NCBI GenBank assembly: GCA_019308525.1
Contig: JAFDIC010000021.1
Location: 1 to 21,593 of the forward strand
Length of the DNA: 21,593 nt
Reading direction: 5' to 3'
Source of the DNA: Deltaproteobacteria bacterium
Lineage (GTDB): Bacteria; Desulfobacterota; DSM-4660; Desulfatiglandales; HGW-15
Part shown: positions 307 through 21,593 of the stretch, piece after piece
Layout of the letters: the number at the start of each line of letters is the position of its first letter
Position numbering within the stretch: the stretch's first letter is position 1
The notes under the pieces: model-generated
The model's input: only the letters and a program-made list of their open reading frames with translations
Databases searched by the model: none
What the model was told of the DNA's origin: nothing
Position numbers and translations under genes: made by a program

Positions 307-2385
307 ATGGATCGGAAAAGCGAGCTATTGAGAAATGTCGCTCTGGTCGCCCACGTGGGATCCGGGAAGACCTCTCTTGGTGAAGCATTTCTCTTCAATG
401 GAAAGGCTACAAACAGGATGGGAAAGGTAGACGATGGCACCTCGAACCTGGACTTTGAGCCCGAGGAAATAAAGAGGAACATTACCATCAGCACGTCCTT
501 TCATCACTGCGAATGGAAAAGGCACTGGATTAACATTATTGATACTCCTGGCGACGATAACTTCCTGTCTGATGCCAAGCTCTGCCTTCAGGCCGCGGAC
601 AGCCTTGTAGTCGTCATTGACGCAACTGGAGGAGTAAAGATAGGGACCGAAAAGGTCTGGGAATTCGGAAACGAGCTGGAACTACCAAGAGCGGTATTCG
701 TCAACAAGATGGATCGCGAAAGGGCCGATTTTTTCAGTGCCGTCCAAGAAATCATCAGTACCTTCCAGGTCAAGGCTACACCTGTATTCTTGCCCATAGG
801 ATCAGAGGACAAATTCGAGGGCCTTGTGGATCTAATAAGGCTCAAGGCTTATATCTACAAGAAGGACGGGAGCGGCAAGTTCCAGGATTCGGATGTGCCG
901 AAAGACATGCAGGACACGGTCTCTGAATGGCGGGAAAAAATGATAGAGAATGTCGTGGAGGCCGATGATGATTTGATGGAAAAGTATCTGGAAGGGGAAG
1001 AACTGACACCGGATGAAATCGAGAACACACTCTTCCATGGCATGAAATCCAGGCTCGTTGTGCCCATCGTCTGTGGTTCCGGTATCCTGAACATAGGCGT
1101 ATGCCAGTTAATGGATTTGCTGATCCAAGGCATGCCCTCCCCCCTGGAAAAGGGGGAACTTCGCGGGAAAAAGCCCGGGGGAAACGACACCGTGAGCAGA
1201 ACGCCCTCTCCCGATTCACCCTTTTCCTCCATAGTGGTCAAGACAGTCGCTGATCCCTTTGCCGGCAAGCTTAATATCCTGAGAATCTTGTCCGGGACCC
1301 TCAATGCCGACTCCACGGTATACAATCCCAACAAGGCCGTGAAAGAGAAATTCGGGCAGATCTTTCTCCCTGAAGGCAAGAAACAGCAGCCGGTTGAATC
1401 TGCGACTACCGGCGACATCATTGCGATACCCAAGCTGAAGGATACCGGCACTGGAGATACGCTTTGTGACGAAGCGGATCCTATCGTTTACGAGGCTGTC
1501 GAGCCGTTGCCCGCAGTTATCTCCTACGCCGTTGAAGCCAAGGTAAAGGGCAGCGAAGACAAGGTATTCACCTCTCTTGCCAAGCTGCTCGAAGAAGACC
1601 CCACGCTCCGCCTGGAGAGGGACCAGGCCACGTCCGAGATCATCCTTTCCGGGACAGGTCAGATACATTTGGAGGCCACGTGTGAAAAGCTGAGCAGAAA
1701 ATTCGGCGTGGAGGTGAACCTTAAACCCGTAAAGGTTCCTTACAAGGAAACCATAAAGAAGCCGGCCAAACATGTAATTTACAGACACAAGAAGCAGACC
1801 GGTGGCCGCGGCCAGTTTGCAGAAGTTCACTTCGACGTAACTCCTCTTCAGAGGGGCAAAGGCTTTGAATTCGAGGAAGCCCTGGTGGGCATGAACGTAC
1901 CAAGGAATTTCGTCCCTGCCGTTGAAAAGGGACTGAACGAGGCACTCAACAGTGGCGTCCTCGCCGGGTATCCCGTCGTAGACCTAAAAGTGAGATTTTA
2001 CGACGGGAAATCTCACGATGTCGACTCCTCTGAGATGGCCTTTAAGATCGCCGCCAGCATGTGTTTCAAGAAGGCGGTTCAGGAGGCCAACCCTGCCCTT
2101 CTCGAACCCATAATGAAGATGGAGATCACGGTACCGGAAGAAGTCATGGGCGACGTGATGGGTGATCTTAACAGCCGGCGGGGAAGGGTCTTGGGCGTGG
2201 AGAGCAAGGGCAAGTACCAGGTCATCAAGGCACAGGCCCCCATGGCCGAGGTATTACAGTACGCCCTGGACCTAAACGCCATGACCGCGGGACGGGGTTC
2301 CTTTAGCATGGAGTTCTCCCATTACGAGGAGGTCCCGGCCCACCTGGCGGAGAAGATTATTGCAGAGGCCAAGAAGGGCGAATGA
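307..2385 (+). CDS. elongation factor G-like translational GTPase (FusA2-type paralogue)
   Basis: A ribosomal translocation-type GTPase of 692 residues, the full length of EF-G. G1 is AHVGSGKT (15-22), the switch I text is KRNITI (about 56-61), G3 is DTPGDDNF (79-86) and G4 is NKMD (133-136). Domains II-V follow, including the domain IV loop GGRGQFAEVHF and the C-terminal half with SRRGRVLG. Canonical EF-G has DTPGH in G3, and here the catalytic His position is Asp83. RGITI is also changed to RNITI. Such changes are typical of secondary EF-G paralogues, whose roles include ribosome recycling and are often unknown, so this is probably not the main fusA. No rpsL, rpsG or tuf is adjacent, which agrees. 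The ATG at 307 has GAAAGGA at 293-299. A mogA-type gene follows 34 nt downstream. Confidence 0.93.
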   Translation: MDRKSELLRNVALVAHVGSGKTSLGEAFLFNGKATNRMGKVDDGTSNLDFEPEEIKRNITISTSFHHCEWKRHWINIIDTPGDDNFLSDAKLCLQAADSLVVVIDATGGVKIGTEKVWEFGNELELPRAVFVNKMDRERADFFSAVQEIISTFQVKATPVFLPIGSEDKFEGLVDLIRLKAYIYKKDGSGKFQDSDVPKDMQDTVSEWREKMIENVVEADDDLMEKYLEGEELTPDEIENTLFHGMKSRLVVPIVCGSGILNIGVCQLMDLLIQGMPSPLEKGELRGKKPGGNDTVSRTPSPDSPFSSIVVKTVADPFAGKLNILRILSGTLNADSTVYNPNKAVKEKFGQIFLPEGKKQQPVESATTGDIIAIPKLKDTGTGDTLCDEADPIVYEAVEPLPAVISYAVEAKVKGSEDKVFTSLAKLLEEDPTLRLERDQATSEIILSGTGQIHLEATCEKLSRKFGVEVNLKPVKVPYKETIKKPAKHVIYRHKKQTGGRGQFAEVHFDVTPLQRGKGFEFEEALVGMNVPRNFVPAVEKGLNEALNSGVLAGYPVVDLKVRFYDGKSHDVDSSEMAFKIAASMCFKKAVQEANPALLEPIMKMEITVPEEVMGDVMGDLNSRRGRVLGVESKGKYQVIKAQAPMAEVLQYALDLNAMTAGRGSFSMEFSHYEEVPAHLAEKIIAEAKKGE

Positions 2386-4909: not shown

Positions 4910-7900
4910 CTAATGGGGCGGGGTGCTGTTATCGCCTAGTTGCCCCATCCTCTTGTCAAATTTCCTTGCTACCAGGTTCTCAAATTCCTTTCCGAGATAG
5001 GGACGATGATCGAATAGATACCACTTTATGCTGTCCCAGTAGTCCTTCAACTCCTGCATGTCCCCTGTCCTGTCCAGCAAATCGGTTATCTCTTTTAATT
5101 TCTCCCTCTTTAGTTGGTCTTTCCTGAGCTCATAAAGGTCCACAAGCCTGTGCCTTTGCCCTTCTGTAAAACCGATGTCCAGAGAACGCTCCATGAGGTC
5201 GTTGACTATGCCCTGAATCTCCTTGAAATCCCTGGATGCCTCTATTTTAGTCCTGACCCGGTCAAGCATGGCGTCAGTAATTTCCCGGAGTCTCTCTTCA
5301 AATGCCCTTTCCAGTTCATTTTCATAATCATCAGTATAAAATGGTGTCTTCCTCAAGGACCTGAGACTATAGTGGAAATAGTTCTTTAGCTGATCCAGGT
5401 CCCCTATGGACCTCATGTAAGATATCTTTTGGCCTATGTTTATCCTGTCGACGAAATCGACCGTGAGCACCCTCTTGTCCTCGTCCTTGCCAAGGACAAG
5501 GCCTGTCTTTGCCCTGAAGAAGTGATTTAGATAATAGGGCTCACTCCATAGTTTCTTCGCCGAGATGTTGTTCAAGGAGTCATTCAGTGCTTCGTACCGC
5601 CTTTCCACCTTCTCTGCCAAATCCAGGAAGTTGACGCAAACGGGCTTGTTTTTCCCTCTAAAACGGGCGCAGCCCATCAAGACTATCAAGAGCAGCTTTA
5701 TCATATTCTCGTAATTCATGTAGACGCTGACATTTTCAAAACCATAAAGACGGACTTCGTCCCTTATCAGTCTCTCGAGCATAAAGTCCAGTGCCTCTCC
5801 TGGCAGACTCCTCAAGCCATTGTACAGGCGCAATGCCTCAAAAAGTTCCCGCTCAAAGGTCGGGTACCCGACCCCGCGATAATTCCTCCTTTGATAAATG
5901 AATCTGAGGGGGACTTTGACAATGAGACTTGCAAGATCCCGGAATTCCACGTACCTAATTCCCTTGAGCCTGAATATTCTTTCCAGGGCATAGATCTTTC
6001 TCCCCGCCCTGACATAGTCTTCCTCCCTTGATTCATCGCGGCCAAAGGAATCAAAATAGTTTGCCGGTGTCTTGTCAGGGGGCAGGCCCCTTTGATAGTA
6101 GAGTTCGAGGGCATGGAAGACATGGCCCCTCCTGGAGCAGATTTCCCGGATGTGTTCATCAAGGGTTCTCTTGCCCTCGATAATCTCATGGCATATACAC
6201 CTGATCCGGTACAGTTGGGTCGCAAGATCTTCCAGGACTATGCCCTCCTTCATCGAGGAAAACACAATAAAAGAACTTATGAAAAAGGCGTCAAAAAAGT
6301 TCTTGTGACCCAGGTCCAGGAGCTCCTGGGTGGCATAAATCGAAAATTCTCCCCGAACCATGTGGTGGAGAAAATCATGGTATCTCACAAGGTCTACCAA
6401 GTATTTCCGCGACTTCCCATAAATACCGTATCTCTCTGGTATCTTTTCCTTTTCAAGGAAATAGGCCCCCGCAAGTGCGTGATCGACTATGTTGACCTCA
6501 TTCCTGTATTTTTCCCTCAGCACGGGATTGAGTCCTATGTCCCTGAAAACGGAAGACCTGATGAACGCCTCGAACAGAGGCCGATCTGCGCTCATCAATT
6601 GATTTATCATGCTCCCCAGGGTTTCGATCTGTACCTCACTCAATCCCACGATACCGGCTGCCATTGGACCAAATTCACGCTGGGCCGCCTTGTGCAATAG
6701 CTCCACATCCTGGAAGCCATCCTTGTCTCGCCTTATCAAGGCTTCTATCTTCTTTATGCTTTTCAGGATGTGGGAAAGGACGGGTGACTTCAGGTAGACC
6801 TTACCCGCCAATTTGAGGTCCTTGAGTTCCATGATCTCGGGAAGCACAAACTCCAGCAGGGAAGGACAGCGTTGATACAGGATCTCAATGTCCGAGTAAA
6901 GGCTTTCAGGATGGAAAAGAGCCTTTACGAAATTAGCCCTAATGGTCTCCCTCAGTGCTTCCGCCCTCTTGAACCACATCCTCTGTCTAGCAGGTAATCT
7001 CAAATCGGAATCATCGTGGGACAGGAGTCTCAGGTGACTCGTATAGAAGCTTTCCAGGTTCCCGAAAAAGCTCTCCATCTCTTCCAGGCTCTGGACGGGA
7101 ATCTCAGACACCCGACATCCCTCGTATTCCTTTGCCATCCTTTCCAGCCGGTTTATGTTTTCATCCATATTGATGTAAGTGATGTCCAGGGCCTGGGTCT
7201 CATGGTTCAACTTCAACTGGAATCCAGTGCCTACAATAAAGGAGGTCTGGCTCTCATATAGCTGGTCGCTAAATCGCCTCAGCGTGGGGAGATCGAGATA
7301 GTTTTCATTGATATACTTGGTCTCTGCTTCCACCTCCTTGACCAGGTGGCTGATCTCAGCCGGGGCAACCCCAGCCAATATGGGATTGAAATTTACAATA
7401 TCCGTCCTCGACAAGTTGACGGCAACCCACAGGAGGGGAAAGAGCATGCGCCCGTCCATCCTTTCAAATATGTGACCGGTGCCGTGGAATTCGATATTGA
7501 GAAACTTTCTGTAGAAGGTGGACACTTCAAGGGGATCGCTTTTCAGATACTTCCTTTCAAATTCCCTGATCACCCCCAGCAACCTCAGTGCGTTTTCTAT
7601 CTTGGCCAGATTGGCGTCATTGTAATCGGCAAGAACCTCCTTCTCCATGATCCCCTTTGAAGGTAGATCTTGCCAGTTGTGGAGAAATTCGAAACGGTTC
7701 ATCATTTTTAGTATTTTCCTGACGATCTGATGGTGGATGCCGCCCGTGGAACTTATACTTTCATCCAGGTATTGCTCCCAGTCCAATTCGCGATTAGTAA
7801 CCACTCTGACCATGGAATCGTAGAGGCCAAAGAGCTCGGCAAGCTGCTCTGTGCTAAGGCCTGACCTCTTTGATGCAACCGTTTCCGCCATGGTCATCAA

Positions 7901-9628
7901 TCTACAATAGCCCAACAGATTCAACGACTGCTGGGAATCCACGGTGCGGGCCAAGTCAGAGACCGGTTTCAATGCCTTTTCGTTCATCTTCCCGGCCAGC
8001 ACCCTCCCCATGGCCGTATGCCCAACTACTATGAGAAAGATCTCTTTCAACTCGCCAGGACTGAAGCCGAATAGGGATAGAATCTCCAGATTTGACAAGA
8101 GGCTCGTCCTGGGACCTTCTATCCCTTCCGGGTTAAGGTAGGATTCGATCCTTTCAAGTTTGCTTATCTTGGAAATCAGTCCGAGGACATGGTTCAAGCT
8201 TGGATACCTTTTCTTCTTGTTCACCAAGGGCTCCCTGAGTTGTTCCATAAAGACCTCAGGGAGCCACGGAAGCTCTTTTCTTTTGATTCCTTTCAGCACC
8301 CTCAGGGTCCTGATCAGATAACCGAAGGAATCGCGATAATCAGCCAACAGGCTTAGAGGACATCCGGAAAGCTTGGATTCCGCAACCGTCTCCTTTATCT
8401 CTGAGAGGGTCGTTTCTGGCACCTTTTTCTCCCCAAGGTATATGAGCATGTAACTTGGAGGATAACCATCGATTCTGAATCTCCTCTCCCAGTCACTCTT
8501 CACAGACTCCGGCAACAGGGGCTTCAGGAAGATTTCCTCGAAAAAGGGAGAAAACATCTCGGGCCAGGCCTTGACCTGATCATAGCTCAATGTATCCTCG
8601 AGGGGATAATTCAGATAGGGCAATTCATCCATCTCCTCTATGTTCAACTCTTCCACATTTCTCCCGTCCAGGAGCTTGTTCAGGATATCACTCCCCATGT
8701 ACATACCGTCCAGGTATTTTTGAAGGTCGAAGACATTGACCTGATAGGCCCCTCCACCTGAATGATATTTCTTCATGGTCCTGAAGGCGTGGCTGAACAG
8801 GAGGAAGTTCTTCTCTTCTTCAAGTGAGCGGAATGTCACCTCTACGGTCTGCTTAGACCTCAGCGGATGAGAATCTGCTATCATGAACAGCTCGCCCCCC
8901 TGCTTGAGGGACTGAAAGGACCTGTTCAAGAAATAGATCGCGTACTCCCTCAATCTCTTCTTTGAGGTCAACGCCTTTTTACTCGGATTGAACTCCTTCA
9001 TGACTATGATCTCATAGATATCCCTGGTTAGTATCACCATGTCCAACTCGGCCCTCAGAGACTGGAGCATTCTCAGGGAATCTATGACTACAAACTGGTG
9101 TTCTTTGAAGCGAAGAGAGAGATCGTTGACTATGAGGTGGTCCGCCTGAGTCAGAAGGCCTATCCTGTAGCGCTCCTTGAGGTATTTCTTACCGTGGAAG
9201 CGGATTATCTTGCTAATCTCATCAGCCCTATTTCTTATGCGCGAGACGGATAGAGAAATAAGGTTCCCGGGGACCAGGTAAAAGGGTCTCCCATGGCTTG
9301 AAAACCTTATCAGGAGGCCTAGTTCGGCGTAAATCCTGTTTATCTCCCTGTAATGCCGCCTGACATTCTCAGGGTCTTCAAGGCTCACTGATTGGAGCAA
9401 TTCGAGGTCCTTTTGGCTCAATCGATTATAGAGCTCAAAGAATCCGAATCCGTACGCATTTCCACCAAAACGGCTCTGCATCTGGGCCGGATGTCTGCGG
9501 GACACAAATGTTCCTGGCGGGATATCCCTCGGATCTATGCCCAGGGACTGGAACTCCTCCGGTTTGATAAAGCTGAAAGGGTCGTCGGACCCTATAGTAT
9601 CAAAGGGTAATGATTCAGGGAGATTCAT
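4910..9628 (-). CDS. giant conserved-looking protein of unknown function, 1572 residues
   Basis: I do not recognise this family with confidence. The reading frame is intact over 4.7 kb and rich in Leu, Glu, Arg and Lys. It has no signal peptide and no convincing membrane segment, so it is probably cytosolic. About 165-300 has an alternating strand-helix look, with DMVIL (196-200), SLKQGGELFMIADSHP (240-255) and VNVFDLQKYL (298-307), loosely like the late part of a Rossmann methyltransferase. No glycine-rich SAM loop is visible. About 1040-1150 resembles an HD-domain segment: VDH (His1050), YHDFLHH (1083-1089), then FFDAFFISSFIVFSS and ATQLYRI, vaguely like the HD region of GlnD. No nucleotidyltransferase or ACT domain is seen. 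The C-terminus (about 1430-1530) is charged and helical, possibly coiled coil. The ATG lies 5 nt after the livF stop. The only GGAGGAG is about 23 nt upstream inside livF, so coupled translation is likely. It is the last gene of the importer operon. Confidence 0.85.
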   Translation of the reverse strand: MNLPESLPFDTIGSDDPFSFIKPEEFQSLGIDPRDIPPGTFVSRRHPAQMQSRFGGNAYGFGFFELYNRLSQKDLELLQSVSLEDPENVRRHYREINRIYAELGLLIRFSSHGRPFYLVPGNLISLSVSRIRNRADEISKIIRFHGKKYLKERYRIGLLTQADHLIVNDLSLRFKEHQFVVIDSLRMLQSLRAELDMVILTRDIYEIIVMKEFNPSKKALTSKKRLREYAIYFLNRSFQSLKQGGELFMIADSHPLRSKQTVEVTFRSLEEEKNFLLFSHAFRTMKKYHSGGGAYQVNVFDLQKYLDGMYMGSDILNKLLDGRNVEELNIEEMDELPYLNYPLEDTLSYDQVKAWPEMFSPFFEEIFLKPLLPESVKSDWERRFRIDGYPPSYMLIYLGEKKVPETTLSEIKETVAESKLSGCPLSLLADYRDSFGYLIRTLRVLKGIKRKELPWLPEVFMEQLREPLVNKKKRYPSLNHVLGLISKISKLERIESYLNPEGIEGPRTSLLSNLEILSLFGFSPGELKEIFLIVVGHTAMGRVLAGKMNEKALKPVSDLARTVDSQQSLNLLGYCRLMTMAETVASKRSGLSTEQLAELFGLYDSMVRVVTNRELDWEQYLDESISSTGGIHHQIVRKILKMMNRFEFLHNWQDLPSKGIMEKEVLADYNDANLAKIENALRLLGVIREFERKYLKSDPLEVSTFYRKFLNIEFHGTGHIFERMDGRMLFPLLWVAVNLSRTDIVNFNPILAGVAPAEISHLVKEVEAETKYINENYLDLPTLRRFSDQLYESQTSFIVGTGFQLKLNHETQALDITYINMDENINRLERMAKEYEGCRVSEIPVQSLEEMESFFGNLESFYTSHLRLLSHDDSDLRLPARQRMWFKRAEALRETIRANFVKALFHPESLYSDIEILYQRCPSLLEFVLPEIMELKDLKLAGKVYLKSPVLSHILKSIKKIEALIRRDKDGFQDVELLHKAAQREFGPMAAGIVGLSEVQIETLGSMINQLMSADRPLFEAFIRSSVFRDIGLNPVLREKYRNEVNIVDHALAGAYFLEKEKIPERYGIYGKSRKYLVDLVRYHDFLHHMVRGEFSIYATQELLDLGHKNFFDAFFISSFIVFSSMKEGIVLEDLATQLYRIRCICHEIIEGKRTLDEHIREICSRRGHVFHALELYYQRGLPPDKTPANYFDSFGRDESREEDYVRAGRKIYALERIFRLKGIRYVEFRDLASLIVKVPLRFIYQRRNYRGVGYPTFERELFEALRLYNGLRSLPGEALDFMLERLIRDEVRLYGFENVSVYMNYENMIKLLLIVLMGCARFRGKNKPVCVNFLDLAEKVERRYEALNDSLNNISAKKLWSEPYYLNHFFRAKTGLVLGKDEDKRVLTVDFVDRINIGQKISYMRSIGDLDQLKNYFHYSLRSLRKTPFYTDDYENELERAFEERLREITDAMLDRVRTKIEASRDFKEIQGIVNDLMERSLDIGFTEGQRHRLVDLYELRKDQLKREKLKEITDLLDRTGDMQELKDYWDSIKWYLFDHRPYLGKEFENLVARKFDKRMGQLGDNSTPPH

Positions 9629-9633
9629 TTATT

Positions 9634-10437
9634 TTACAGCCAGCGTTTTCTCCTCCTGTAAGCCTTTACCTCCTTGTAAGACTTCAGCGCCCCTGATGCC
9701 GCAGTCCCAAGGTAGAACTCCTTAACATCCGGGTTTTCCCTCAGCTCAGAAGCTCCACTCTCAAGCACGATCTTTCCGTTTTCCATGACATAGCCGTAGT
9801 GGGCAATCTGAAGGGCCATGTTTGCGTTCTGCTCGACGACCATAAGGGTGGTCCCCTGTTCTTGATTGATTCTCTTTATTATCTGAAAGATCTCTTTTAC
9901 CAGCAACGGCGCCAAGCCCAGGGAAGGCTCATCCAGGAGGAGGAGTTTTGGATGGGCCATCAAGGCCCTTCCGATGACAAGCATCTGAAGCTCCCCTCCG
10001 CTGCAATAGCCGGCCAGGGCCTTCTTTCGAGCAAGCAGGGCTGGAAAATAGCGGTACACCAGTTGCAGGTCATCCTGGTACGGCCTCCCCCATCTGGTCG
10101 CAGTTCCAACCTTTAGGTTTTCTTCCACCGTTAGGTACTTGAATTCTTGCCTCCCTTCCAGGACCTGAATAATCCCTTTCCTGGTAATCTCTTCCGGGGA
10201 TGAGTTCTGTACCGGCTCTCCGTCATACTCAATGGAGCCCTCGGTCACTTTGCCGTTTTCAGGTTTCAGTAACCCCGAAATGGCCTTGAGGGTTGTGGTC
10301 TTTCCCGCCCCGTTGCTCCCCAGGAGAGACACGATCTGTCCCTTCCTGATCTTGAGGGAGACGCCCTTTAAGACCTGGATTACATCAGAGTACACGACGC
10401 TTATGTTATTTATGAGAAGCCGAATATCATCTTCCAT
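9634..10437 (-). CDS. livF: branched-chain amino acid-type ABC transporter ATPase, LivF family
   Basis: One of the two ATPases of a HAAT-family importer, at the inner face of the membrane with LivG, LivH and LivM. It has 267 residues. Walker A is GSNGAGKTT (40-48), the Q-loop region is QVLEGRQEF (91-99), the ABC signature is CSGGELQ (145-151), Walker B is LLLLDEP (165-171), and the H-loop position reads VEQN as is usual for LivF. The Pro normally seen in the 'VPEGR' text is Leu here, and the leading Leu of the signature is Cys. A basic tail (YRRRKRWL) extends beyond the core, which I associate with non-amino-acid members of the family. The operon context with an acyl-CoA ligase points to an organic acid substrate rather than an amino acid. 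AGGG about 8 nt before the ATG may serve as the ribosome site. Confidence 0.9.
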   Translation of the reverse strand: MEDDIRLLINNISVVYSDVIQVLKGVSLKIRKGQIVSLLGSNGAGKTTTLKAISGLLKPENGKVTEGSIEYDGEPVQNSSPEEITRKGIIQVLEGRQEFKYLTVEENLKVGTATRWGRPYQDDLQLVYRYFPALLARKKALAGYCSGGELQMLVIGRALMAHPKLLLLDEPSLGLAPLLVKEIFQIIKRINQEQGTTLMVVEQNANMALQIAHYGYVMENGKIVLESGASELRENPDVKEFYLGTAASGALKSYKEVKAYRRRKRWL

Positions 10438-10712: not shown

Positions 10713-11783
10713 TCAATAGGAGAAGGGCCACAACCTGAAGCTTGACTTAACTATCCTCCAGACCTCTGCAAGCCCTTTCGGCTCGAAGATCACAAACAAT
10801 ACGATTGCAAGGCCGAAAACGAACTCCCTGAGAGGAGCGATGGTAATGGCAGCGCCCATGGTTGCCCCGATATTCATAAGGTATTCGGTGGCATGACTCA
10901 AGATTTCCTCGAGCACAACGATGAAGACAGCCCCGAACACGGACCCAGGAATATTCCCGAGCCCTCCTATGATGATCATGGCGATAAAGACGATGGAAAG
11001 CCATAGATCAAAGGGCTCAGGGGTTATGCTCATGATGTAATAGGCATACAGTCCCCCAGCCACCCCTGTATAGAATGAACTGATGGCGAAAGAAAGCAGT
11101 TTATAGGGGAAAAGTGGTATACCCATTCCTTCCGCCGCCCTGTCATTGTCCCTGATGGCTATGAAAGCCCGCCCGTATCTCGACCGAACCAGGTTTGAGG
11201 CGATCCATGTCAGGACCACGAAACAGGCGAAGATAACATAGAAAAAGGCCCTGTCACTACCCAAATCTATCCCAAAGAGCGTAGCACCCAAAATGCTGAT
11301 TCCGGCAGCCCCTCCCGTCAGGCTCTCCCATTGAACGAGGACATATTCGATGATCTTCTGTCCTGCCAAAGTGGCGATAAGCAGGTACAGATGTTTGAGA
11401 CGGGCCGAGGGGAGCCCGAATATGATCCCCACGGCGGCGGTCATGATACCGGCAGCAGGGATCGAGAGTATGAAAGGCATACTTAGCTTATTTGCAAGTA
11501 TGGCCGCCGTATAAGCTCCTACCCCAAAGAATGCCCCGTGCCCAAGAGAAATCTGCCCGGTATAGCCTATGAGAAGGTTCAGTCCGACCGCTGCAATGGA
11601 GTATATCCCTATTATGTTCAGGATATAGAGTGTGAAGGGGCTGCTAAGGAAGGGGACCACCAGGAAAAGCAACACCAGGCCGATGACCAACCACAGCCTC
11701 CCGAAATCCGTCTCAAAGATGGTCAATTCCTGGTAGTAGGATTCCTTGAAATTACCGCAGGGATGAAACTGGAGCCTCCTCAT
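10713..11783 (-). CDS. livM: branched-chain amino acid-type ABC transporter permease, LivM family
   Basis: An inner-membrane permease of the HAAT importer with 356 residues. A hydrophilic N-terminal arm (1-30, FHPCGNFKESYYQEL) precedes many hydrophobic segments, probably 8-10. LivM landmarks are GLNLLIGYTGQISLGHGAFFGVGAY (about 67-91, described by its GYTGQISLGHG core), the cytoplasmic coupling loop text AIRDNDRAAEGMGI, and IIIGGLGNIPGSVFGA. The ATG at 11783 has GGAGAAAGG about 10 nt upstream. It follows livH after 65 nt, and a 275-nt gap separates it from livF. In many related operons, as I recall them, the binding-protein gene sits in that gap. Confidence 0.92.
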   Translation of the reverse strand: MRRLQFHPCGNFKESYYQELTIFETDFGRLWLVIGLVLLFLVVPFLSSPFTLYILNIIGIYSIAAVGLNLLIGYTGQISLGHGAFFGVGAYTAAILANKLSMPFILSIPAAGIMTAAVGIIFGLPSARLKHLYLLIATLAGQKIIEYVLVQWESLTGGAAGISILGATLFGIDLGSDRAFFYVIFACFVVLTWIASNLVRSRYGRAFIAIRDNDRAAEGMGIPLFPYKLLSFAISSFYTGVAGGLYAYYIMSITPEPFDLWLSIVFIAMIIIGGLGNIPGSVFGAVFIVVLEEILSHATEYLMNIGATMGAAITIAPLREFVFGLAIVLFVIFEPKGLAEVWRIVKSSFRLWPFSY

Positions 11784-11848: not shown

Positions 11849-12727
11849 TCACACCCTCTCAATCTCCACAAGCCCGAACAGACCATAGGGTTTTACCATC
11901 AAGATCACGATGAGCACGATGTACGGCACAATCTCCCGAAGCGACGTGGATATGTATCCCCCCGTGAACGTCTCCACCAAACCTATGATGATACCGCCAA
12001 GTATGGCACCACCTATGCTGTCCAGTCCGCCCAGTATCACAACAGGAAACACCTTGAGGCCAATGGCGCTCAATTCATGGACATTGATGCCGTTGATGAT
12101 ACCCAGCACTATCCCGCTCATGGCGGCCACGATAAAGGCTATGGCCCAGGAAAGGGCGAATACCCTGCGCACGTGGACCCCGAGGGAGAGGGCGGCAGTC
12201 TGATTGTCCGCCACGGATCTCATGTAGATCCCCTGGGAAGAATATTTGAAAAAAAAACCAAAGATTAGCAGGAACAGTATTCCTATGATAAAGGCCGCCA
12301 CATTTACCGAGGGAACCCTGATCATGCCCCAGTCTATGGACAATACTTCCGGCAAGAAGGGCCTGTATTCATGGATGTCGCCTCCGAATATGAACAGCAG
12401 CAAGCCCTTGAACATGATCCCAATCCCCAGGGTCAACATGATCACGTGAATAAGCTCCTCTCCTATCAGGGGGCGAAGGAAAAACCTTTCAACCACGAAA
12501 CCCAGGGCAAAGGTACCGGCCAGGGTGAATGCAAATGCCAGCACTATGGGCAAATTGGCCCACGTAGAGAGGACCAGGAATACAAAGGCTCCTATGGCCA
12601 GAAGCTCCCCGTGGGCGAGATTGAGAACGCTGCTGGACTTGAAAATCATTACAAACCCTAATGCCGACAGGGCGTACAAGAAGCCCAGGGAAAGCCCATT
12701 CACCAAGACCTGTAGAAAAAACTCCAT
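11849..12727 (-). CDS. livH: branched-chain amino acid-type ABC transporter permease, LivH family
   Basis: The partner permease of LivM, 292 residues and almost entirely hydrophobic with about 8 membrane segments. Family landmarks are LGFVMIFKSSSVLNLAHGE (23-41, NLAHGE is diagnostic), the coupling loop SVADNQTAALSLGV (171-184) and VVILGGLDSIGGAILGG (229-245). The ATG at 12727 has GGAGAGGAG close upstream and lies 18 nt after the ligase stop codon, which supports one transcript with tight coupling. Confidence 0.93.
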   Translation of the reverse strand: MEFFLQVLVNGLSLGFLYALSALGFVMIFKSSSVLNLAHGELLAIGAFVFLVLSTWANLPIVLAFAFTLAGTFALGFVVERFFLRPLIGEELIHVIMLTLGIGIMFKGLLLFIFGGDIHEYRPFLPEVLSIDWGMIRVPSVNVAAFIIGILFLLIFGFFFKYSSQGIYMRSVADNQTAALSLGVHVRRVFALSWAIAFIVAAMSGIVLGIINGINVHELSAIGLKVFPVVILGGLDSIGGAILGGIIIGLVETFTGGYISTSLREIVPYIVLIVILMVKPYGLFGLVEIERV

Positions 12728-12745: not shown

Positions 12746-14695
12746 TCAAACCTCCAGGATCTTCGCCGTGGTCTCGATTTTCCCCACTGTTCCATCCCTG
12801 TACCTGACCTGACCGCTGACCTTGAGATCTTTCTTGCCTGCATACATGGCATCGATAAGTTCCTTGTATTGCTCAAAGACGAACTTCCTGCGCACCTTGC
12901 CCGTTCTGGTCAACTCCTCGTCGTCGGGGTCCAGCAATTTGTAGAGGAGGATAATCTTCACCAATTGCATTGGCTTGGGCAATTGTGCGTTGACCTGCCT
13001 GACCTCACCCTGAATCAGTTCCTCGACCTGCGGTTGTTGGGAGAGGTCCGTGTAGGTCGTATAGGGGATCTTCCTCTCTTCGGCCCAGTTCCCCACGTTG
13101 CCGAAGTCTATGTTGATGAACGCCGTAAGATAGGGCTGACCCTCCCCCCATATGACAGCTTCCTTAATATAGGGGCTGAATTTCAACCTGGTCTCTATGA
13201 AGTCCGGAGAAAAGGCCTCCCCCTCCCTTGTCCTCATTATGTCTTCTTTTCTGCCTATGATGAGCAGGTGCCCGTCTTCGTCCAGATATCCCGCGTCTCC
13301 CGTATAGAACCACCCTTCTCTGAGCACCTCGGCCGTGGCCTCCAGGTTCTCGTAATAGCCCACAAAGTTTGACTTGCTGGCAACCACCACTTCCTGGTCA
13401 TCGGTTATCCTTACCTTTGTACCGGGCAGAGGTTTTCCCACGGTTTCGGGTTTCACCTCGTCGTCGGGTTGGACCTGGAAGATTCCCCCTGCCTCGGTCA
13501 GTCCATAGCATTGCTTCAGGTTCAGTCCATTGGCCCTGAAGAAGCGAATTACCTGAGGGCTTATGGGATGGCCCCCGGTGTAGGCCGCCCGAAACCCCAG
13601 GCATCCAACCCTGTCCATCAGCGGTCTCGATACTGTGCTCGTCATGATCTTCTTCAGGGCCTTGAGATGGACCGGCACAGGTCGACGCTCCGATTCAAGG
13701 TCCACTACTCTGCCGCCGATCCTCTGGGAGAGGTTGTACAGGGACCTCTTTATGTATCCTGAGTCATTTATCTTCACCCTTATCTGGGAAGCCAGGTCTT
13801 CCCAGAACCTGGAAGAGGAGACCAGTACGGTCGGGCCGATTTCCCTGAAGTCTTCCATGGCTGTCTCGAAGGTCTCGGGAAAATTCATGACCAGGCCCCC
13901 GCACAAGGCTATCCCCACTCCCCATAGTTGATCTACGATCCAGGCCGTGGGCGTAATCGAAATCCAGTTGTCGCCGATGCCGATTGGTGCAGTCCTGAGC
14001 CACTTGAAGGCCATATCCGTGAAATTTGCATAACTCAACATCACCAGCTTTGGCACACCCGTGGTACCGGATGTCATAAGCATCAAGGCAACGTCATCAG
14101 GATTCCCCTCCCATAGCTCCTTGTTGAAAAGTTCCGGCTTTTCCCGGTCGAGCCTCTTTCCCAGCTCAAGTAGCTGTGCAAAGCTGATCAACCAGGGGTC
14201 GTCTTCATAGCTTCTCATCCCTGTCGGGTCTACATAGATTACCCGGCGGACGTGGGATATATGGTCACGTGTTTCAAGGAGTTTGTCCACCTGCTCCTGA
14301 TCCTGGACGAACACGTATGCTGCCTTGATCCTATCGAGACCCCCCGCTATCTCTTTCGATACCGCGGAAGTGAACAGGGGCACCGCAACAGCACCCATCG
14401 CCTGGACTGCCAGTTCACTGAACAGCCACTCAGGATGGTTGTCCAGTATCAGCCCGACGTTCTCTCCCCTCTTGAGGCCCAGGGATATAAGGCCCAGGGA
14501 TGTATGCTTGGCATATACCAGGTATTCCTGCCAACTGTATCTCTGCCATATCCCGTATGCCTTTTCACGGATGGCGGTCTTTTCGGGCCCCAGTCTTTCC
14601 GCCTGTCTCAACAGTATCTGGGGAAAGGTGAACTGCTCCAGGGTCGACAACGCTTCACTGTTCGAAATTCCCCTCTGGCCCGCAGCACTGCCCAT
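12746..14695 (-). CDS. AMP-forming acyl-CoA synthetase (long-chain, FAA1-like)
   Basis: It would activate a carboxylic acid to its CoA thioester with ATP, via an acyl-adenylate. It has 649 residues, within the range of the bacterial long-chain type. The P-loop is MTSGTTGVPK (207-216). YTGGHPISP (372-380), YGLTEAGG (397-404), WFYTGD (462-467), GRKEDIM (481-487) and the C-terminal GKVRRKF (599-605, with a Lys at or near the catalytic position) are in order. FAA1-like features suggest long-chain or bulky substrates, but chain length cannot be read from sequence alone and an aromatic acid is possible. It lies inside the importer operon, 8 nt after the livG stop and 18 nt before livH, with GAGG just upstream of the ATG. 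I therefore infer that it converts the imported substrate. Confidence 0.92.
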   Translation of the reverse strand: MGSAAGQRGISNSEALSTLEQFTFPQILLRQAERLGPEKTAIREKAYGIWQRYSWQEYLVYAKHTSLGLISLGLKRGENVGLILDNHPEWLFSELAVQAMGAVAVPLFTSAVSKEIAGGLDRIKAAYVFVQDQEQVDKLLETRDHISHVRRVIYVDPTGMRSYEDDPWLISFAQLLELGKRLDREKPELFNKELWEGNPDDVALMLMTSGTTGVPKLVMLSYANFTDMAFKWLRTAPIGIGDNWISITPTAWIVDQLWGVGIALCGGLVMNFPETFETAMEDFREIGPTVLVSSSRFWEDLASQIRVKINDSGYIKRSLYNLSQRIGGRVVDLESERRPVPVHLKALKKIMTSTVSRPLMDRVGCLGFRAAYTGGHPISPQVIRFFRANGLNLKQCYGLTEAGGIFQVQPDDEVKPETVGKPLPGTKVRITDDQEVVVASKSNFVGYYENLEATAEVLREGWFYTGDAGYLDEDGHLLIIGRKEDIMRTREGEAFSPDFIETRLKFSPYIKEAVIWGEGQPYLTAFINIDFGNVGNWAEERKIPYTTYTDLSQQPQVEELIQGEVRQVNAQLPKPMQLVKIILLYKLLDPDDEELTRTGKVRRKFVFEQYKELIDAMYAGKKDLKVSGQVRYRDGTVGKIETTAKILEV

Positions 14696-14703
14696 TAATG
14701 CCT

Positions 14704-15534
14704 CTATTCCAACCTCGTTTCCTCTCCAAGGTAAGCCTTGATAACTTCCGGATCCCTTTGAACATGCTCCGGCGTTCCCTCGGATATCTTTACCCCGAAA
14801 TCAAGAACGATGACCCTTTGAGAGATACTCATCACCACAGACATATCGTGCTCCACCAGGATCATTGTTTGACCCCACGCTTCGTGCAGATCTTTCAGAA
14901 AACGTACCATGTCCTCTTTTTCTTCGAGAGTCATGCCTGCAAAGGGTTCATCGAGGATCAATAGTTTTGGTTCCAATGCCAGGGCACGGCCGAGCTCCAC
15001 CCGTTTTCTCATGCCATAGGGCAGTGATCCCACCAGCTTCTTCCTTATCGACTGCATTTCCAGGAAATCAATAAGTTCTTCCAGTATCCTCCGGTGACGT
15101 ACCTCTTCGTCCCTCACGGATTTCAGGAAAAGGGACGCACTACCCAGATTGTATCTGCTGTGGACATGGCGGGCCAAAAGCATGTTGGACAGGACGGTCA
15201 TTCCCGGAAACAGCTCTATGTTCTGATAAGTCCTGCCGATGCCGAGTTTGGTGAGGTGGTGAGTGGATAGGCGGGTAATCTCTTCACCGTTGAAGAATAT
15301 CTGCCCCTCCTGCGGCTTGTAATACCCGGTAATACAGTTCAACAGGCTCGTCTTTCCGGCCCCATTGGGGCCGATGATCGCCACCAGCTCGCCGCTGTTA
15401 ACTACCAGATTGATCTTGTTCAGGGCGGTAATTCCGCCAAAGGTCAGGGTTAAATTTTTCACCTCCAGCTCGGCCTGTCTCTCCTCGGGCCGAACCGAAG
15501 CGAAAATACTGGGTTCACCGCGAAAGGCTTTCAT
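14704..15534 (-). CDS. livG: branched-chain amino acid-type ABC transporter ATPase, LivG family
   Basis: The second importer ATPase, 276 residues. Walker A is GPNGAGKT (55-62), the Q-loop area is GIGRTYQNIELFPGMTV, Walker B is LLILDEP (191-197), the D-loop region is FAGMT, and the H-loop is VEHDM (His229). The signature reads LPYGMRKRVELGRAL (171-185) instead of LSGGQ. I associate this PYG form with LivG relatives from acid- and aromatic-uptake operons. The N-terminal 20 residues precede the family core, and a shorter form cannot be excluded because the site before the ATG (ACAGG) is weak. The ligase gene starts 8 nt after its stop. Confidence 0.92.
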   Translation of the reverse strand: MKAFRGEPSIFASVRPEERQAELEVKNLTLTFGGITALNKINLVVNSGELVAIIGPNGAGKTSLLNCITGYYKPQEGQIFFNGEEITRLSTHHLTKLGIGRTYQNIELFPGMTVLSNMLLARHVHSRYNLGSASLFLKSVRDEEVRHRRILEELIDFLEMQSIRKKLVGSLPYGMRKRVELGRALALEPKLLILDEPFAGMTLEEKEDMVRFLKDLHEAWGQTMILVEHDMSVVMSISQRVIVLDFGVKISEGTPEHVQRDPEVIKAYLGEETRLE

Positions 15535-15651: not shown

Positions 15652-16863
15652 TTACCTTAGTATCCTGACCTTTTCCCTCCCCGGTGCCCAGAAGCTCGTA
15701 AGCGGAGTGTAAGTCTGGTCTTCATTGATCTTTACGATCCTTGCCATCCAGGAACCGCTGTGATCCGTCTCAGTGTAAGTTATGTTCGGGACGAGACCAC
15801 CGAAATCCTCGTTCCTGAATGTTTCAAGCGCCTTATTGACAGTCTCGCTGTTTATTTCTCCAAACTTCTCATGTGCCCTTCGAAAGGCACGTTCCATGAT
15901 AGAGGCGATCACCACTCCTTCCCAGTAGGAGGCATCAAACCTGGAGACCGTCTTGTATCTATCCCACAGCTCCCTCAAGAGATCCATCCCGGGGGTCTCA
16001 TCCACAGGCAGCCCTCCGGGGAATTGCATGAACATCCGGTCCCTGATCAGGCCCTTGCCCCGTTTGAAGAAATCCGGGTCCGTGGAGGTCCAGGTCCCGA
16101 AAAAGGGCACGTCGTAGCCTATGCGGTCCGCAGACTTCAAGGCCATCAGTATCGCCGAAGGCAGGCATTGCATGAAAATATACTGGGCTCCCGCATTCTT
16201 CAGCCTCAGCAGCTCGGTGTTGAGATCTAGCGCCTTCGGGGGAAACTCCTCAATGGCTACGATGTCCACACCGTATTTGGAGGCATATTGCTTACTGGCA
16301 TCATGGATCGACTTACCATAGGCATTATTGTAAGTCAGAAGACCCACTTTGGGAACTCCCGGCCCCTTGTGGATGGCACGGATATACTCCAGCACGGCGT
16401 AGCTGTCCATGTTGTATGCTCCGTAGGGGAGGTACGCATAGTCAACAGGCGGCTTCAAGATACCCTGATAGGTCGAGTAGTTGATATTGGGTATCTTGTA
16501 CTTCTGGATAATAGGCTTTGCCATGATGCCTGAACCGGCATCCCATGTGGCCAGGATGTCCATTCTTTCAGAAGTGCAGAACTTCTTGACCCACTTGATG
16601 GCCTCGGGAACCTTGTATCCGTGATCCACGATCTTCAAGTCTATCTTGTTGCCGTAGACCCCTCCTTTCACCTCATTGACATACCTGAAATAATCCCTGT
16701 GCCCCTTTGCGTGAAATTGCCCCCACGTGGAGGCAGGCCCTGTGAGGTTGATAATCGCTCCGACCTTGATGGTCTTGGCACTAACATCATCCGTTAGACC
16801 GACCACGAAACAACCGGCAGCGAAGAAGGCTCCAGCCAGAAAAAATAGAAACAACCTGCGCAT
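15652..16863 (-). CDS. livK: periplasmic solute-binding protein of the Liv-type importer
   Basis: It captures the substrate in the periplasm for LivHMGF. It has 403 residues, a usual length for Peripla_BP_6-type proteins. A signal peptide MRRLFLFFLAGAFFAAGC... is followed by the mature start TIKVGAIINLTGPASTWG. Cleavage may follow VSA29. Cys18 in FAAGC also makes a weak lipobox, so a lipoprotein is possible. I chose the ATG at 16863 because AAGGAGGG lies 6 nt upstream and the signal peptide starts there. A longer reading from 16926 begins near the predicted transcript start and spoils the signal peptide. The substrate is not readable from the sequence. The gene symbol is by family only. Confidence 0.88.
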   Translation of the reverse strand: MRRLFLFFLAGAFFAAGCFVVGLTDDVSAKTIKVGAIINLTGPASTWGQFHAKGHRDYFRYVNEVKGGVYGNKIDLKIVDHGYKVPEAIKWVKKFCTSERMDILATWDAGSGIMAKPIIQKYKIPNINYSTYQGILKPPVDYAYLPYGAYNMDSYAVLEYIRAIHKGPGVPKVGLLTYNNAYGKSIHDASKQYASKYGVDIVAIEEFPPKALDLNTELLRLKNAGAQYIFMQCLPSAILMALKSADRIGYDVPFFGTWTSTDPDFFKRGKGLIRDRMFMQFPGGLPVDETPGMDLLRELWDRYKTVSRFDASYWEGVVIASIMERAFRRAHEKFGEINSETVNKALETFRNEDFGGLVPNITYTETDHSGSWMARIVKINEDQTYTPLTSFWAPGREKVRILR

Positions 16864-16931
16864 TGCTTCCCTCCTTTTCAAGGGGTTAACGATATACCAT
16901 ATCACCATCGCGCTTCCGAGATTCACTAGAA

Positions 16932-17260: not shown

Positions 17261-17279
17261 GAATGAACAACCATTCATT
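17258..17279. promoter_or_regulatory. FadR-like (TetR family) operator overlapping the -10 and start site
   Basis: A perfect inverted repeat AATGAATG / CATTCATT around a 6-nt centre (17266-17271). The 18-base core TGAATGAACAACCATTCA (17260-17277) differs from the Bacillus subtilis FadR consensus, as I recall it (TGAATGAMTANTCATTCA), at two central positions. Its place over the -10 element and start point fits autorepression relieved by acyl-CoA. Confidence 0.72.
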
Positions 17280-17319
17280 TTGCGCTCGACCTCTTTGGGA
17301 AAGATCGACTTTGGATTCG

Positions 17320-17949
17320 ATGAAAAGCAGGAACGGGGATAAATATCAGAGGATCATCAACGCGGCGACGAAGATTTTCGCGAGAAAGGGATTTTTCAAC
17401 TCCAAAATATCTGACATTGCAAAGGAAGCGCAGGTCGCTGACGGCACCATTTACCTCTATTTCGAAAACAAGGACGACATCCTGATCTCCCTCTTCGAAG
17501 AACAGATGAAAAAGGTCCTGGAAGGTATGAAAGAAGAACTCAAGAGGGAGAAGGATCCCGTTAGAAAGATCAAGAGATTCGCTCTCTACCACTTGAAACT
17601 TATTGAACACAACAAAGACATGGCGGAAATCATCCAAGTGGAACTGAGGCAGAGCAGCAAGTTCATGAAAGAGTACAAGAACGAAAAATTCATCGAATAT
17701 CTCAACCTGATAGGGGAGATAGTCAGGGAGGGACAAGAGAAGGGCGTGTTCCGGCAGGATATCGTCCCGGGCATAGCCAAACGGGCGTTTTTTGGAGCCC
17801 TGGATGAAATGTCCAGGTTCTGGGTGTTGTCAAGCCGGAGAAAATATGGTATAGACACCGCCGCCAGGCAAATCAGTGGGTATTTTCTCCACGGCCTGGT
17901 GAAGGAAACCCAAATGACAAGTACCAAATTGCACGAAAGCACCAAATGA
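17320..17949 (+). CDS. fadR: TetR-family transcriptional regulator, FadR (YsiA)-type
   Basis: A DNA-binding repressor, probably sensing long-chain acyl-CoA. It has 209 residues. The N-terminal helix-turn-helix (about 9-50) runs RIINAATKIFARKGF ... ISDIAKEAQVADGTIYLYF. The next text, ENKDDILISLFEEQM, and the ligand-domain piece VELRQSSKF closely resemble B. subtilis FadR. I chose the ATG at 17320, which aligns with that protein's N-terminus. A TTG at 17311 has a better-spaced GGGAAAG and is an alternative. The ATG at 17263 lies in the operator and is rejected. The last residues (about QMTSTKLHESTK) and the stop codon are encoded by an intergenic-type repeat. Divergent importer and downstream etfBA suggest a fatty- or organic-acid regulon. 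Confidence 0.85.
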   Translation: MKSRNGDKYQRIINAATKIFARKGFFNSKISDIAKEAQVADGTIYLYFENKDDILISLFEEQMKKVLEGMKEELKREKDPVRKIKRFALYHLKLIEHNKDMAEIIQVELRQSSKFMKEYKNEKFIEYLNLIGEIVREGQEKGVFRQDIVPGIAKRAFFGALDEMSRFWVLSSRRKYGIDTAARQISGYFLHGLVKETQMTSTKLHESTK

Positions 17950-18080
17950 CAAATGCCAAATCACAAACGGGGCCAAGGGGAATAATACGGGGCGGGCTCT
18001 GATGGTGGATTCCCTGTGCTCTGTTTGGGACTTGTGATTTGATCATTGGGATTGTTTCAAGTTTGGTGTCTGGAATTCGG
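17910..18080. repeat. MITE-like repeat overlapping the end of the fadR-type gene
   Basis: CCAAATGACAA occurs at 17910-17920 and 17942-17952. CAAATCACAA at 17957-17966 has a perfect inverted partner TTGTGATTTG at 18032-18041. Weaker inverted similarity (TTTGGTGTCTGGAATT) continues to about 18080. The left arm codes for the regulator's C-terminal tail and supplies its TGA at 17947-17949. The style matches 'caaatgacaaa...' repeats I recall from Desulfobacterota genomes. No transposase is present. Confidence 0.6.
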
Positions 18081-18162
18081 AATTTCTCTGGGTTTTGCCC
18101 TTCGGCTGAATCAAGGTTACAAGAAAAGGCTTCGTAAATCATGAAAGGAGGAGGAGAAAAAG

Positions 18163-18957
18163 GTGAATATCATAGTTTGCTTGAAACAGGTACCTGATAC
18201 TGAAACGCAGATCAAGATCGCTCCTGACAAGAAATCTATCGTAGAGGATGACATAAAATGGGTGATGAATCCTTACGATGAGTTTGGCGTCGAGGAGGCC
18301 CTTCGCATCAAAGAAAAGTTCGGAGGTGAAGTCACGGTTATAGGTCTGGGCCCGAAAAGGGTAACCGAGACTATCCGTACCGCCCTGGCTATGGGCGCGG
18401 ACAAGGGGGTCCTCATCAGCGATCCCGCCCTCGAAGGGAGTGACTCCCTGGCGACAGCAAAGGCCCTTGCAGCGGTTGTCAAGGACCTTCAATTTGACCT
18501 GATTTTTACAGGCCAAAGGGGGGTCGACGATGACATGGGTGTCGTGGGAGCCGCCCTTGCTCAATTCCTTGGGATTCCCCAGCTGTCCCTCATAGTGAAG
18601 GTGGAAGTTGACGATGGGGCAAAGACAGTAAAAGTCCATCGCCCCGTCGAAGGGCAAACACTGGTGATTGAGTCTACATTGCCAGCCCTGATTACGGCCC
18701 ACAAGGGATTGAATGAACCCCGCTATGCATCTTTGCCTGGAATCATGAAAGCCAAAAAGAAACCCCTGGAAGAAAAGACCCTGTCCGAGCTGGGGATGGA
18801 CGCTTCCGAGGTGGGTTCCGGGGCCAGGAGGCTCCAGGTTCTGGAATTGACACCGCCTCCGGAAAGAAAGCCCGGCAAAATCGTCGAAGGGGATACTCCA
18901 GAGGCCAAGGCAGCCGAGCTGGCCCGCCTCCTCCATGAAGAGGCAAAGGTCATATGA
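18163..18957 (+). CDS. etfB: electron transfer flavoprotein, beta subunit
   Basis: A subunit of the EtfAB heterodimer that accepts electrons from acyl-CoA dehydrogenases. It has 264 residues, typical for the family. VCLKQVPDTE opens the protein, WVMNPYDEFGVEEA (33-46) and GQRGVDDDMGVVG form the nucleotide-binding core, and NEPRYASLPGIMKAKKKPL (184-202) is the beta-subunit signature. It starts with GTG at 18163, preceded by AAAGGAGGAGGAG. The alpha gene follows 93 nt after the stop. I cannot tell by eye whether the pair is of the bifurcating type. No dehydrogenase or ETF:quinone oxidoreductase gene lies in the window. Confidence 0.95.
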   Translation: MNIIVCLKQVPDTETQIKIAPDKKSIVEDDIKWVMNPYDEFGVEEALRIKEKFGGEVTVIGLGPKRVTETIRTALAMGADKGVLISDPALEGSDSLATAKALAAVVKDLQFDLIFTGQRGVDDDMGVVGAALAQFLGIPQLSLIVKVEVDDGAKTVKVHRPVEGQTLVIESTLPALITAHKGLNEPRYASLPGIMKAKKKPLEEKTLSELGMDASEVGSGARRLQVLELTPPPERKPGKIVEGDTPEAKAAELARLLHEEAKVI

Positions 18958-19050
18958 GGTTGAACAGGGGGATTTCCCCTTATCTTCTATTATCAACAGC
19001 GAATAGGAATCACCGATACTAAGACAAATTGGAACGAGGAGTTGATAGAA

Positions 19051-20034
19051 ATGGCACAGGATATAATGACAATAGTAGAGCAAAGGGACGGAGAGATTCG
19101 AAAAGTATCTTACGAGGTTGTCAGCGAAGCAAGGCGTCTTGCAGACGCACTCAACCAGAAAGTTGTCGCCATCCTGCTTGGCTCTGACGTCAAGGACAAG
19201 GCTCCTGCACTGGGGCATTATGGGGCAGATAAGGTAATCGTTGCAGATGATCCGAGGCTTCAGGTATACACCACCGATGCCTATGTTTCTGTAATCAGCC
19301 AAATCGTTCAGGCCCATGATCCTGGCATATTGCTGTTGGGGGCCTCTGCACAGGGCAAGGACCTTGCGGGCAGGCTGTGTGCAAGGCTGGACGTGGGAAT
19401 GGCCCAGGACTGCACGGCCTTCTCCGTTGAAGACGGAAATCTTGTTGCAATCCGACCCATATACGCCGGGAAGGCTTACGCAAGGGTGACATTTGACGAG
19501 AGGAGACCCCACATGGCCACTGCAAGGCCCAATGTGATGTCCATGAACGAGCCGGACGAGTCAAGATCTGTAGAGGTTGCGGATGCATCCTTTACGCTGG
19601 ACGACGGGGAACTCAGGACAAAGGTCGTGGATGTGATCCGTGATGAAAGCGGCAAGGTGGACCTTACCGAGGCAGACAAGATCGTATCAGGCGGCCGGGG
19701 CATGAAAGGACCCGAGAATTTCAAGATTCTGGAGGAACTTGCAGAGGTCATAGGAGCTTCGGTAGGGGCCTCTCGTTCCGCGGTGGACGCCGGCTGGAGA
19801 CCCCACAGCGACCAGGTCGGCCAGACGGGGAAGGTGGTCTCGCCGAACCTCTACATCGCTTGCGGGATCTCCGGCGCTATCCAGCACTTGGCCGGTATGG
19901 GGACATCCAAGGTCATAGTGGCGATCAACAAGGATCCCGAAGCGCCCATTTTCCAGAAAGCGGATTACGGGGTGGTTGACGACCTGTTCAAGGTAGTTCC
20001 GCCTTTGACGGAAGAATTCAAGAAGTACGCGTAG
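19051..20034 (+). CDS. etfA: electron transfer flavoprotein, alpha subunit
   Basis: The FAD-binding partner of EtfB, 327 residues. The C-terminal FAD domain is fully present: GGRGMKGPENF, SRSAVDAGW (about 241-249), QVGQTGK (255-261), LYIACGISGAIQH and AINKDPEAPIFQKADYGVV. I chose the ATG at 19051 because AGGAG (19037-19041) lies 9 nt before it. A TTG at 19042 touches that site. The pair would carry electrons from beta-oxidation-like steps to the membrane, or in reverse during synthesis. There is no ferredoxin-like extension at the N-terminus. Confidence 0.95.
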   Translation: MAQDIMTIVEQRDGEIRKVSYEVVSEARRLADALNQKVVAILLGSDVKDKAPALGHYGADKVIVADDPRLQVYTTDAYVSVISQIVQAHDPGILLLGASAQGKDLAGRLCARLDVGMAQDCTAFSVEDGNLVAIRPIYAGKAYARVTFDERRPHMATARPNVMSMNEPDESRSVEVADASFTLDDGELRTKVVDVIRDESGKVDLTEADKIVSGGRGMKGPENFKILEELAEVIGASVGASRSAVDAGWRPHSDQVGQTGKVVSPNLYIACGISGAIQHLAGMGTSKVIVAINKDPEAPIFQKADYGVVDDLFKVVPPLTEEFKKYA

Positions 20035-21526: not shown

Positions 21527-21593
21527 GGCGGTGTAGCTCAGTTGGTCAGAGCATGCGGCTCATATCCGCAGAGTCACTGGTTCGAATCCAGTC
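21527..21593 (+). tRNA. tRNA with CAT anticodon, probably elongator Met, truncated by the window end
   Basis: The acceptor 5' strand GGCGGTG, D-arm GCTCAGTTGGTCAGAGC, anticodon arm TGCGG-CTCATAT-CCGCA (anticodon CAT), a 5-nt variable region, and T-arm ACTGG-TTCGAAT-CCAGT are all visible. The last six acceptor bases, the discriminator base and any CCA lie beyond the window. The paired first acceptor position argues against initiator tRNA. A lysidine-type tRNA-Ile with CAT remains possible. Confidence 0.93.

Follow-up and report, generated by a model that had tools for sequence, protein, structure and literature searches.

Question raised by the locus

Why should an operon for a Liv-type importer and an acyl-CoA ligase end in a gene for a protein of 1572 residues, and does that protein belong to the uptake route or have a role of its own? 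The question is raised by a stretch of 21,593 nucleotides from a Deltaproteobacteria bacterium (contig JAFDIC010000021.1), referred to here as the window, in which the gene, here called BIG, occupies the following position:

4910-9628, minus strand: BIG, a single intact open frame of 1572 amino acids

The answer to which we give about an even chance is that BIG is a cytosolic, non-catalytic regulatory or scaffold protein of the Desulfobacterota, with its own basal role and co-transcription with liv genes in one clade. Its predicted structure makes it look as if it was built from enzyme domains that have been stripped of their known catalytic motifs, and its linkage to the liv and ligase genes is real but clade-specific.

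BIG belongs to a conserved family

A first protein search with BIG returned 332 matches at E<=0.001; those listed are near full-length (the best 120 comprise 119 besides BIG itself, with 52-90% identity across 90-100% of the query), and BIG is thus a gene and not a chance frame. A wider profile search gave 415 relatives, and one seeded with distant members gave 61. Among the matches listed (the best 120 from each of the 332- and 415-match searches), the named relatives belong to Deltaproteobacteria, Thermodesulfobacteriota, genera or families of Desulfobacterota, or unspecific metagenome-assembled genomes (MAGs) of Proteobacteria or Pseudomonadota. A scan of one genome per species produced 76 loci with titles from these same groups, except for one contig (L016) labelled Candidatus Aminicenantes, whose BIG copy falls within the Desulfobacteraceae part of the tree and whose label is likely a result of mis-binning. 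Four cultured species, Desulfarculus baarsii, Desulfoferula mesophila, Desulfocarbo indianensis and Dethiosulfatarculus sandiegensis, have BIG, named as hypothetical. The family is conserved along its whole length and has no curated model, and among the papers listed our literature searches turned up no description of it or of its combination of folds.

Whole-genome searches covered the phylum of locus L038 and the order of L001, the nearest relative; BIG is carried by 41 of 395 genomes in the former and by 62 of 85 in the latter. The figure of 41 discounts four of 45 matches (G212, G220, G242 and G285), which are weak, confined to residues 1013-1155, and lie in open reading frames (ORFs) read as HD-type enzymes. 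Of these ORFs, L115 and likewise L118 were confirmed as nucleotidyltransferase-like, and L116 and its near copy L117 are HD-type enzymes as judged by reading. BIG is single-copy in each genome wherever checked: nine genomes searched gave one match apiece, and where a genome has two matches these cover separate portions of the query, which we take for split copies. The relatives L113 (1139 aa) and L114 (1245 aa) are shorter and stop before the last ~280 residues.

Distances between BIG copies correlate with those of rpoB (Mantel r 0.41, p 0.0036, 23 genomes), yet agreement extends to just 6 of 20 splits, and we therefore do not claim strict vertical descent. In one case (L210, in genome G062) rpoB stands apart from those of G290 and G180, yet the BIG copies group together; this discord would reflect either contamination or transfer.

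Domain organization of BIG

Searches against Pfam, NCBIfam, PADLOC and PDB sequences gave no usable identification of BIG. No Pfam family scores over its cut-off (the best is DUF445, E 0.17), no NCBIfam family matches at E<=1, and a PDB profile match to a DNA polymerase (E 0.011) was treated as noise. PADLOC, applied to three proteins, gave no match in the window copy or L113 and one weak match (E 0.024) in L038, and a role for BIG as an anti-phage defence gene is unsupported by it. Hydropathy shows no clear membrane segment (1.56 is the highest 19-residue Kyte-Doolittle mean), the N-terminus reads as lacking a signal peptide, and the whole protein is near neutral (median pI 6.6, n=69). An earlier note on this DNA had described a large undescribed protein with neither membrane segments nor a familiar domain; the first two points agree with these results, and the third holds for sequence searches but not for predicted structure, in which a methyltransferase fold and an HD-superfamily region are recognized. 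The parts of BIG, from the N-terminus, are:

9269-9628, minus strand: residues 1-120, conserved GGNAYGxG loop and winged-helix-like segment (AlphaFold 2 (AF2) secondary structure)
9443-9466, minus strand: GGNAYGxG motif, residues 55-62, invariant in alignments A1 (35 rows), A2 (27) and A5 (10)
8420-9268, minus strand: class I methyltransferase-like Rossmann domain, residues 121-403 (predicted fold)
9137-9166, minus strand: strand 1 and the loop at the site of the S-adenosylmethionine (SAM) glycine motif, residues 155-164, GxG absent
7124-8419, minus strand: module 1, residues 404-835, helical, then a small strand-containing part
7988-8023, minus strand: G-H-x4-R-x3-G-K motif, residues 536-547
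6164-7165, minus strand: fold of the C-terminal half of the tRNA CC-adding enzyme, residues 822-1155 (predicted model), containing an HD-superfamily domain
5417-6931, minus strand: module 2, residues 900-1404 (duplication test run on 900-1410)
6533-6547, minus strand: FRDIG, residues 1028-1032, at the aligned position of the dyad in HD enzymes
4913-5416, minus strand: C-terminal helices, residues 1405-1572, missing from L113 and L114

The N-terminus may be winged-helix-like, as we read the AF2 model, with helices at 63-69, 72-80 and 86-102 and strands at 107-109 and 115-120. In the domain that follows, a fold search with the AlphaFold model finds the Rossmann methyltransferase fold, and hhalign comparison of this segment with 22 real methyltransferases reaches only 29.9, so that the predicted assignment rests on fold. 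Unlike class I SAM methyltransferases such as PhzM (2ip2), PH0226 (1ve3) and others, BIG has no glycine motif after strand 1, neither GxG nor GxGxG being present in any of the 76 sequences that have the segment; the ribose-acid position is a D in 60/81 sequences and an E in 8/81, with gaps in five. The Foldseek list for the domain includes the methyltransferase-like domain of anamorsin, which is not known to bind SAM.

The two modules are homologous to each other. In hhalign, which was used here for pairwise profile comparisons and not database searches, residues 404-835 match 900-1410 with a probability of 95.6 (E 1.3e-8, 333 columns), compared with 0.3-0.4 for reversed controls. Residues 900-1160 are in turn homologous to the linker-plus-HD region that GlnD and HD-type tRNA nucleotidyltransferases have in common, scoring 95.8 against eight GlnD rows and 94.5 against 22 rows of tRNA-nucleotidyltransferase type (in which L115 appears twice); the controls, for which we used reversed profiles, methyltransferases and, out of the same loci, 12 unrelated families, are all <=1.2. 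For module 1 the homology to HD domains runs only via module 2, as residues 404-640 alone have no direct match to GlnD or to the nucleotidyltransferases (0.3 and 4.2).

BIG 900-1090 aligns to residues 420-562 of the GlnD of L133 (probability 95.8, 143 columns, 24% identity), and the alignment takes in both the LPEF stretch that precedes the HD domain and the histidine of LVRYH. BIG differs from GlnD in that nucleotidyltransferase and ACT domains are undetected by Pfam and NCBIfam, the module is duplicated, a methyltransferase-like domain is placed in front, and the HD dyad is absent in all 81 sequences. The GlnD family model, TIGR01693, leaves BIG unmatched in NCBIfam at E<=1 and picks other genes in the BIG genomes (above cut-off in 8/12).

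The HD metal dyad would lie at residues 1029-1030 and is found in 0/81 sequences. The dyad histidine position is occupied by Q in 63 sequences, R in seven, Y in seven and H in two, and the position of the first HD histidine (953) is an H in 10 and a Y in 58; a later histidine, H1084, is retained in 75. The HDFLHH sequence at 1084-1089 was considered as an HD motif and rejected, since in the alignment to GlnD and the nucleotidyltransferases the dyad position falls at 1029-1030, and BIG has no dyad there. The HD domain of GlnD is responsible for its uridylyl-removing activity, according to PMC4285133; BIG is not expected to carry out this reaction by the same route.

A second comparison is with class II tRNA nucleotidyltransferases (the CC-adding enzyme, 3wfo/3wfr), whose HD-type C-terminal-half fold is shared by the predicted model of BIG 822-1155. 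It raises the possibility, which we regard as unlikely, that BIG binds RNA, perhaps tRNA, as a class II C-terminal scaffold that has shed its nucleotidyltransferase head. That head, PolyA_pol (PF01743), has no match at E<=1 in BIG or five relatives, and other genes with PF01743 are present in 16/16 genomes searched; BIG also differs from these enzymes in lacking the HD dyad and in size and architecture. Weighing against RNA binding, the HD-like module has a slight net negative charge (mean -2.6 per 100 residues, n=81) in a protein that is near neutral overall, and GlnD profiles match no less strongly; the target of GlnD is a protein (PMC4285133).

While the known motifs are gone, others are strongly conserved. 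In the G-H-x4-R-x3-G-K motif, G536 is present in 81/81 sequences, H537 in 79/81, R542 in 80/81, G546 in 79/81 and K547 in 81/81; elsewhere H715 is retained in 78/81, N746 is kept in 79 and N748 in 81. It is possible that G-H-x4-R-x3-G-K, H-G-T and N-F-N provide a new active or ligand site. That BIG is an active enzyme using a site made from these motifs and GGNAYGxG is quite unlikely in our estimation: the motifs are near-completely conserved down to 21-33% overall identity, which speaks for it, but the known catalytic motifs are absent and the conserved ones could be structural. We also give a small chance to a more elaborate arrangement, in which BIG would be a new signalling or metabolic hub that joins a duplicated GlnD-type module to a methyltransferase-type pocket, and which, having lost its ancestral chemistry, was rebuilt around G-H-x4-R-x3-G-K with H-G-T and N-F-N, and senses a metabolite or modifies a partner.

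The non-catalytic scaffold is the reading we prefer. In this, as in everything said here of its function, we infer a role: BIG would work as a binding or regulatory scaffold without catalysis, its methyltransferase- and HD-derived pockets may hold a ligand or partner, its basal role would be its own, and in one clade it would also be co-transcribed with the liv/ligase operon.

Linkage to liv and ligase genes

The earlier note placed BIG as an intact frame of 4.7 kb starting 5 nt past livF, and this is confirmed, the livF stop lying at 9634 and the BIG ATG at 9628. By the ORF list and the Pfam and NCBIfam scans the order of transcription is livK, livG, AMP-ligase, livH, livM, livF and BIG, where the liv names are those of the closest models and score under curated NCBIfam cut-offs:

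9634-10437, minus strand: livF (ABC ATPase), closest Pfam/NCBIfam model, below cut-off
10713-11783, minus strand: livM-type permease (PF02653)
11849-12727, minus strand: livH-type permease (PF02653)
12746-14695, minus strand: AMP-dependent acyl-CoA ligase (PF00501, PF23562)
14704-15534, minus strand: livG (ABC ATPase), closest Pfam/NCBIfam model, below cut-off
15652-16926, minus strand: livK-type substrate-binding protein (PF13458)

Between 4200 and 10800 there are seven promoter-like matches, compared with a mean of 6.1 in shuffled sequence, and eight terminator-like matches, compared with a mean of 7.3; at this level the absence of a promoter of its own for BIG is unproved.

We surveyed 92 of 93 loci, L071 having been dropped as its fragment was missed by the ORF caller; L053 shares its MAG with L070, and L072 with L076, so that the loci are partly non-independent. 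A locus was scored as linked if livF, livM, livH or ligase genes (>=40% identity) lie upstream on the same strand, as unlinked if at least 3 kb of upstream sequence has no such genes, and as undecidable if the upstream sequence is shorter. Thirty-four loci are linked, 44 are unlinked and 14 are too short to decide; 16 of the unlinked loci (L113, L114 and L119-L132) were hand-picked from distant genomes (without them the numbers are 34 and 28), and the ratio is thus not a frequency. All of the linked loci fall in one clade, with copies at least 45% identical to the window BIG (the L076 fragment is too short for that score; its match is 53%). Ten decidable loci in this closer identity group are unlinked, and none of the 34 decidable loci in the distant group (<44% identity) is linked. 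Operon membership, as the earlier note had it, therefore holds within the clade of the window, where BIG recurs as the last gene of a liv/ligase operon, but not among distant relatives; a constant association of BIG with liv and ligase genes was not found in the 92 loci and 28 genomes.

These data bear on whether BIG belongs to the Liv/acyl-CoA ligase uptake route, as a regulator or metabolic scaffold, with its unlinked copies acting in trans. Such a role would account for the 34/92 linked loci, in 25 of which livF is immediately upstream with a gap of 0-188 nt (by ORF calls made here), and for the genomic association with the ligase: a ligase of >=54% identity is found in six of 28 BIG genomes, and adjoins BIG in five of the six (in G432 both are on short separate contigs). 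Against it, this ligase was not found in 22/28 BIG genomes, some of which are incomplete, so that single absences carry less weight, and the tie to acid uptake that the earlier note proposed is not supported either, 44 loci, near and distant, being unlinked. On the tree, parsimony requires at least eight changes in linkage on 67 rows, which we read as about one gain and repeated losses while BIG stayed; some branches of the tree are flagged as long and some rows as odd in composition, and these counts are approximate. We consider membership of the uptake route quite unlikely, and since BIG stands beside the transporter operon in one lineage only, it is probably no part of the transporter.

The neighbours of BIG vary with clade, as judged from one representative scanned per cluster. 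In Syntrophobacteraceae and kin the neighbours are PgpA, VanZ-like and trypsin-like genes; another clade has a Ham1-family gene and a zinc-ribbon protein; genomes with BIG matching Desulfarculaceae proteins have an M20 peptidase or LytB neighbour; and in L051 they are a GidA gene and one read as RadA-like. Some close loci (L011, L012, L013, L034 and L035) retain etfBA upstream of BIG, with no liv genes in that flank. L010 (14993-20980) and L061 (5183-9604) have a more distant liv-type set (25-49% identity), accompanied by a ligase, which is located downstream of BIG and on the other strand.

Elsewhere in the window, 17263-20034 contains a TetR regulator with a YsiA-like C-terminal domain, oriented divergently from the liv operon. 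After it come two ORFs read here as etfB and etfA; similar ORFs recur upstream of BIG in other loci (68-91% identity). A 692-aa EF-G-like factor at 307-2385 (plus strand) recurs downstream of BIG in L001, L005 and L029. The Rfam scan found nothing besides one tRNA (RF00005) at 21527-21593, which is truncated by the window end and was not reported by ARAGORN.

Implications

A protein of ~1570 residues that several orders have preserved over nearly its full length must be important to the cells that have it, and as cultured species possess BIG it is open to testing. The predicted structure would combine known folds in an arrangement for which we found no description, and BIG would add a case of enzyme domains that have become a non-catalytic assembly. 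It also illustrates that an attractive operon context can be merely a local arrangement of genes.
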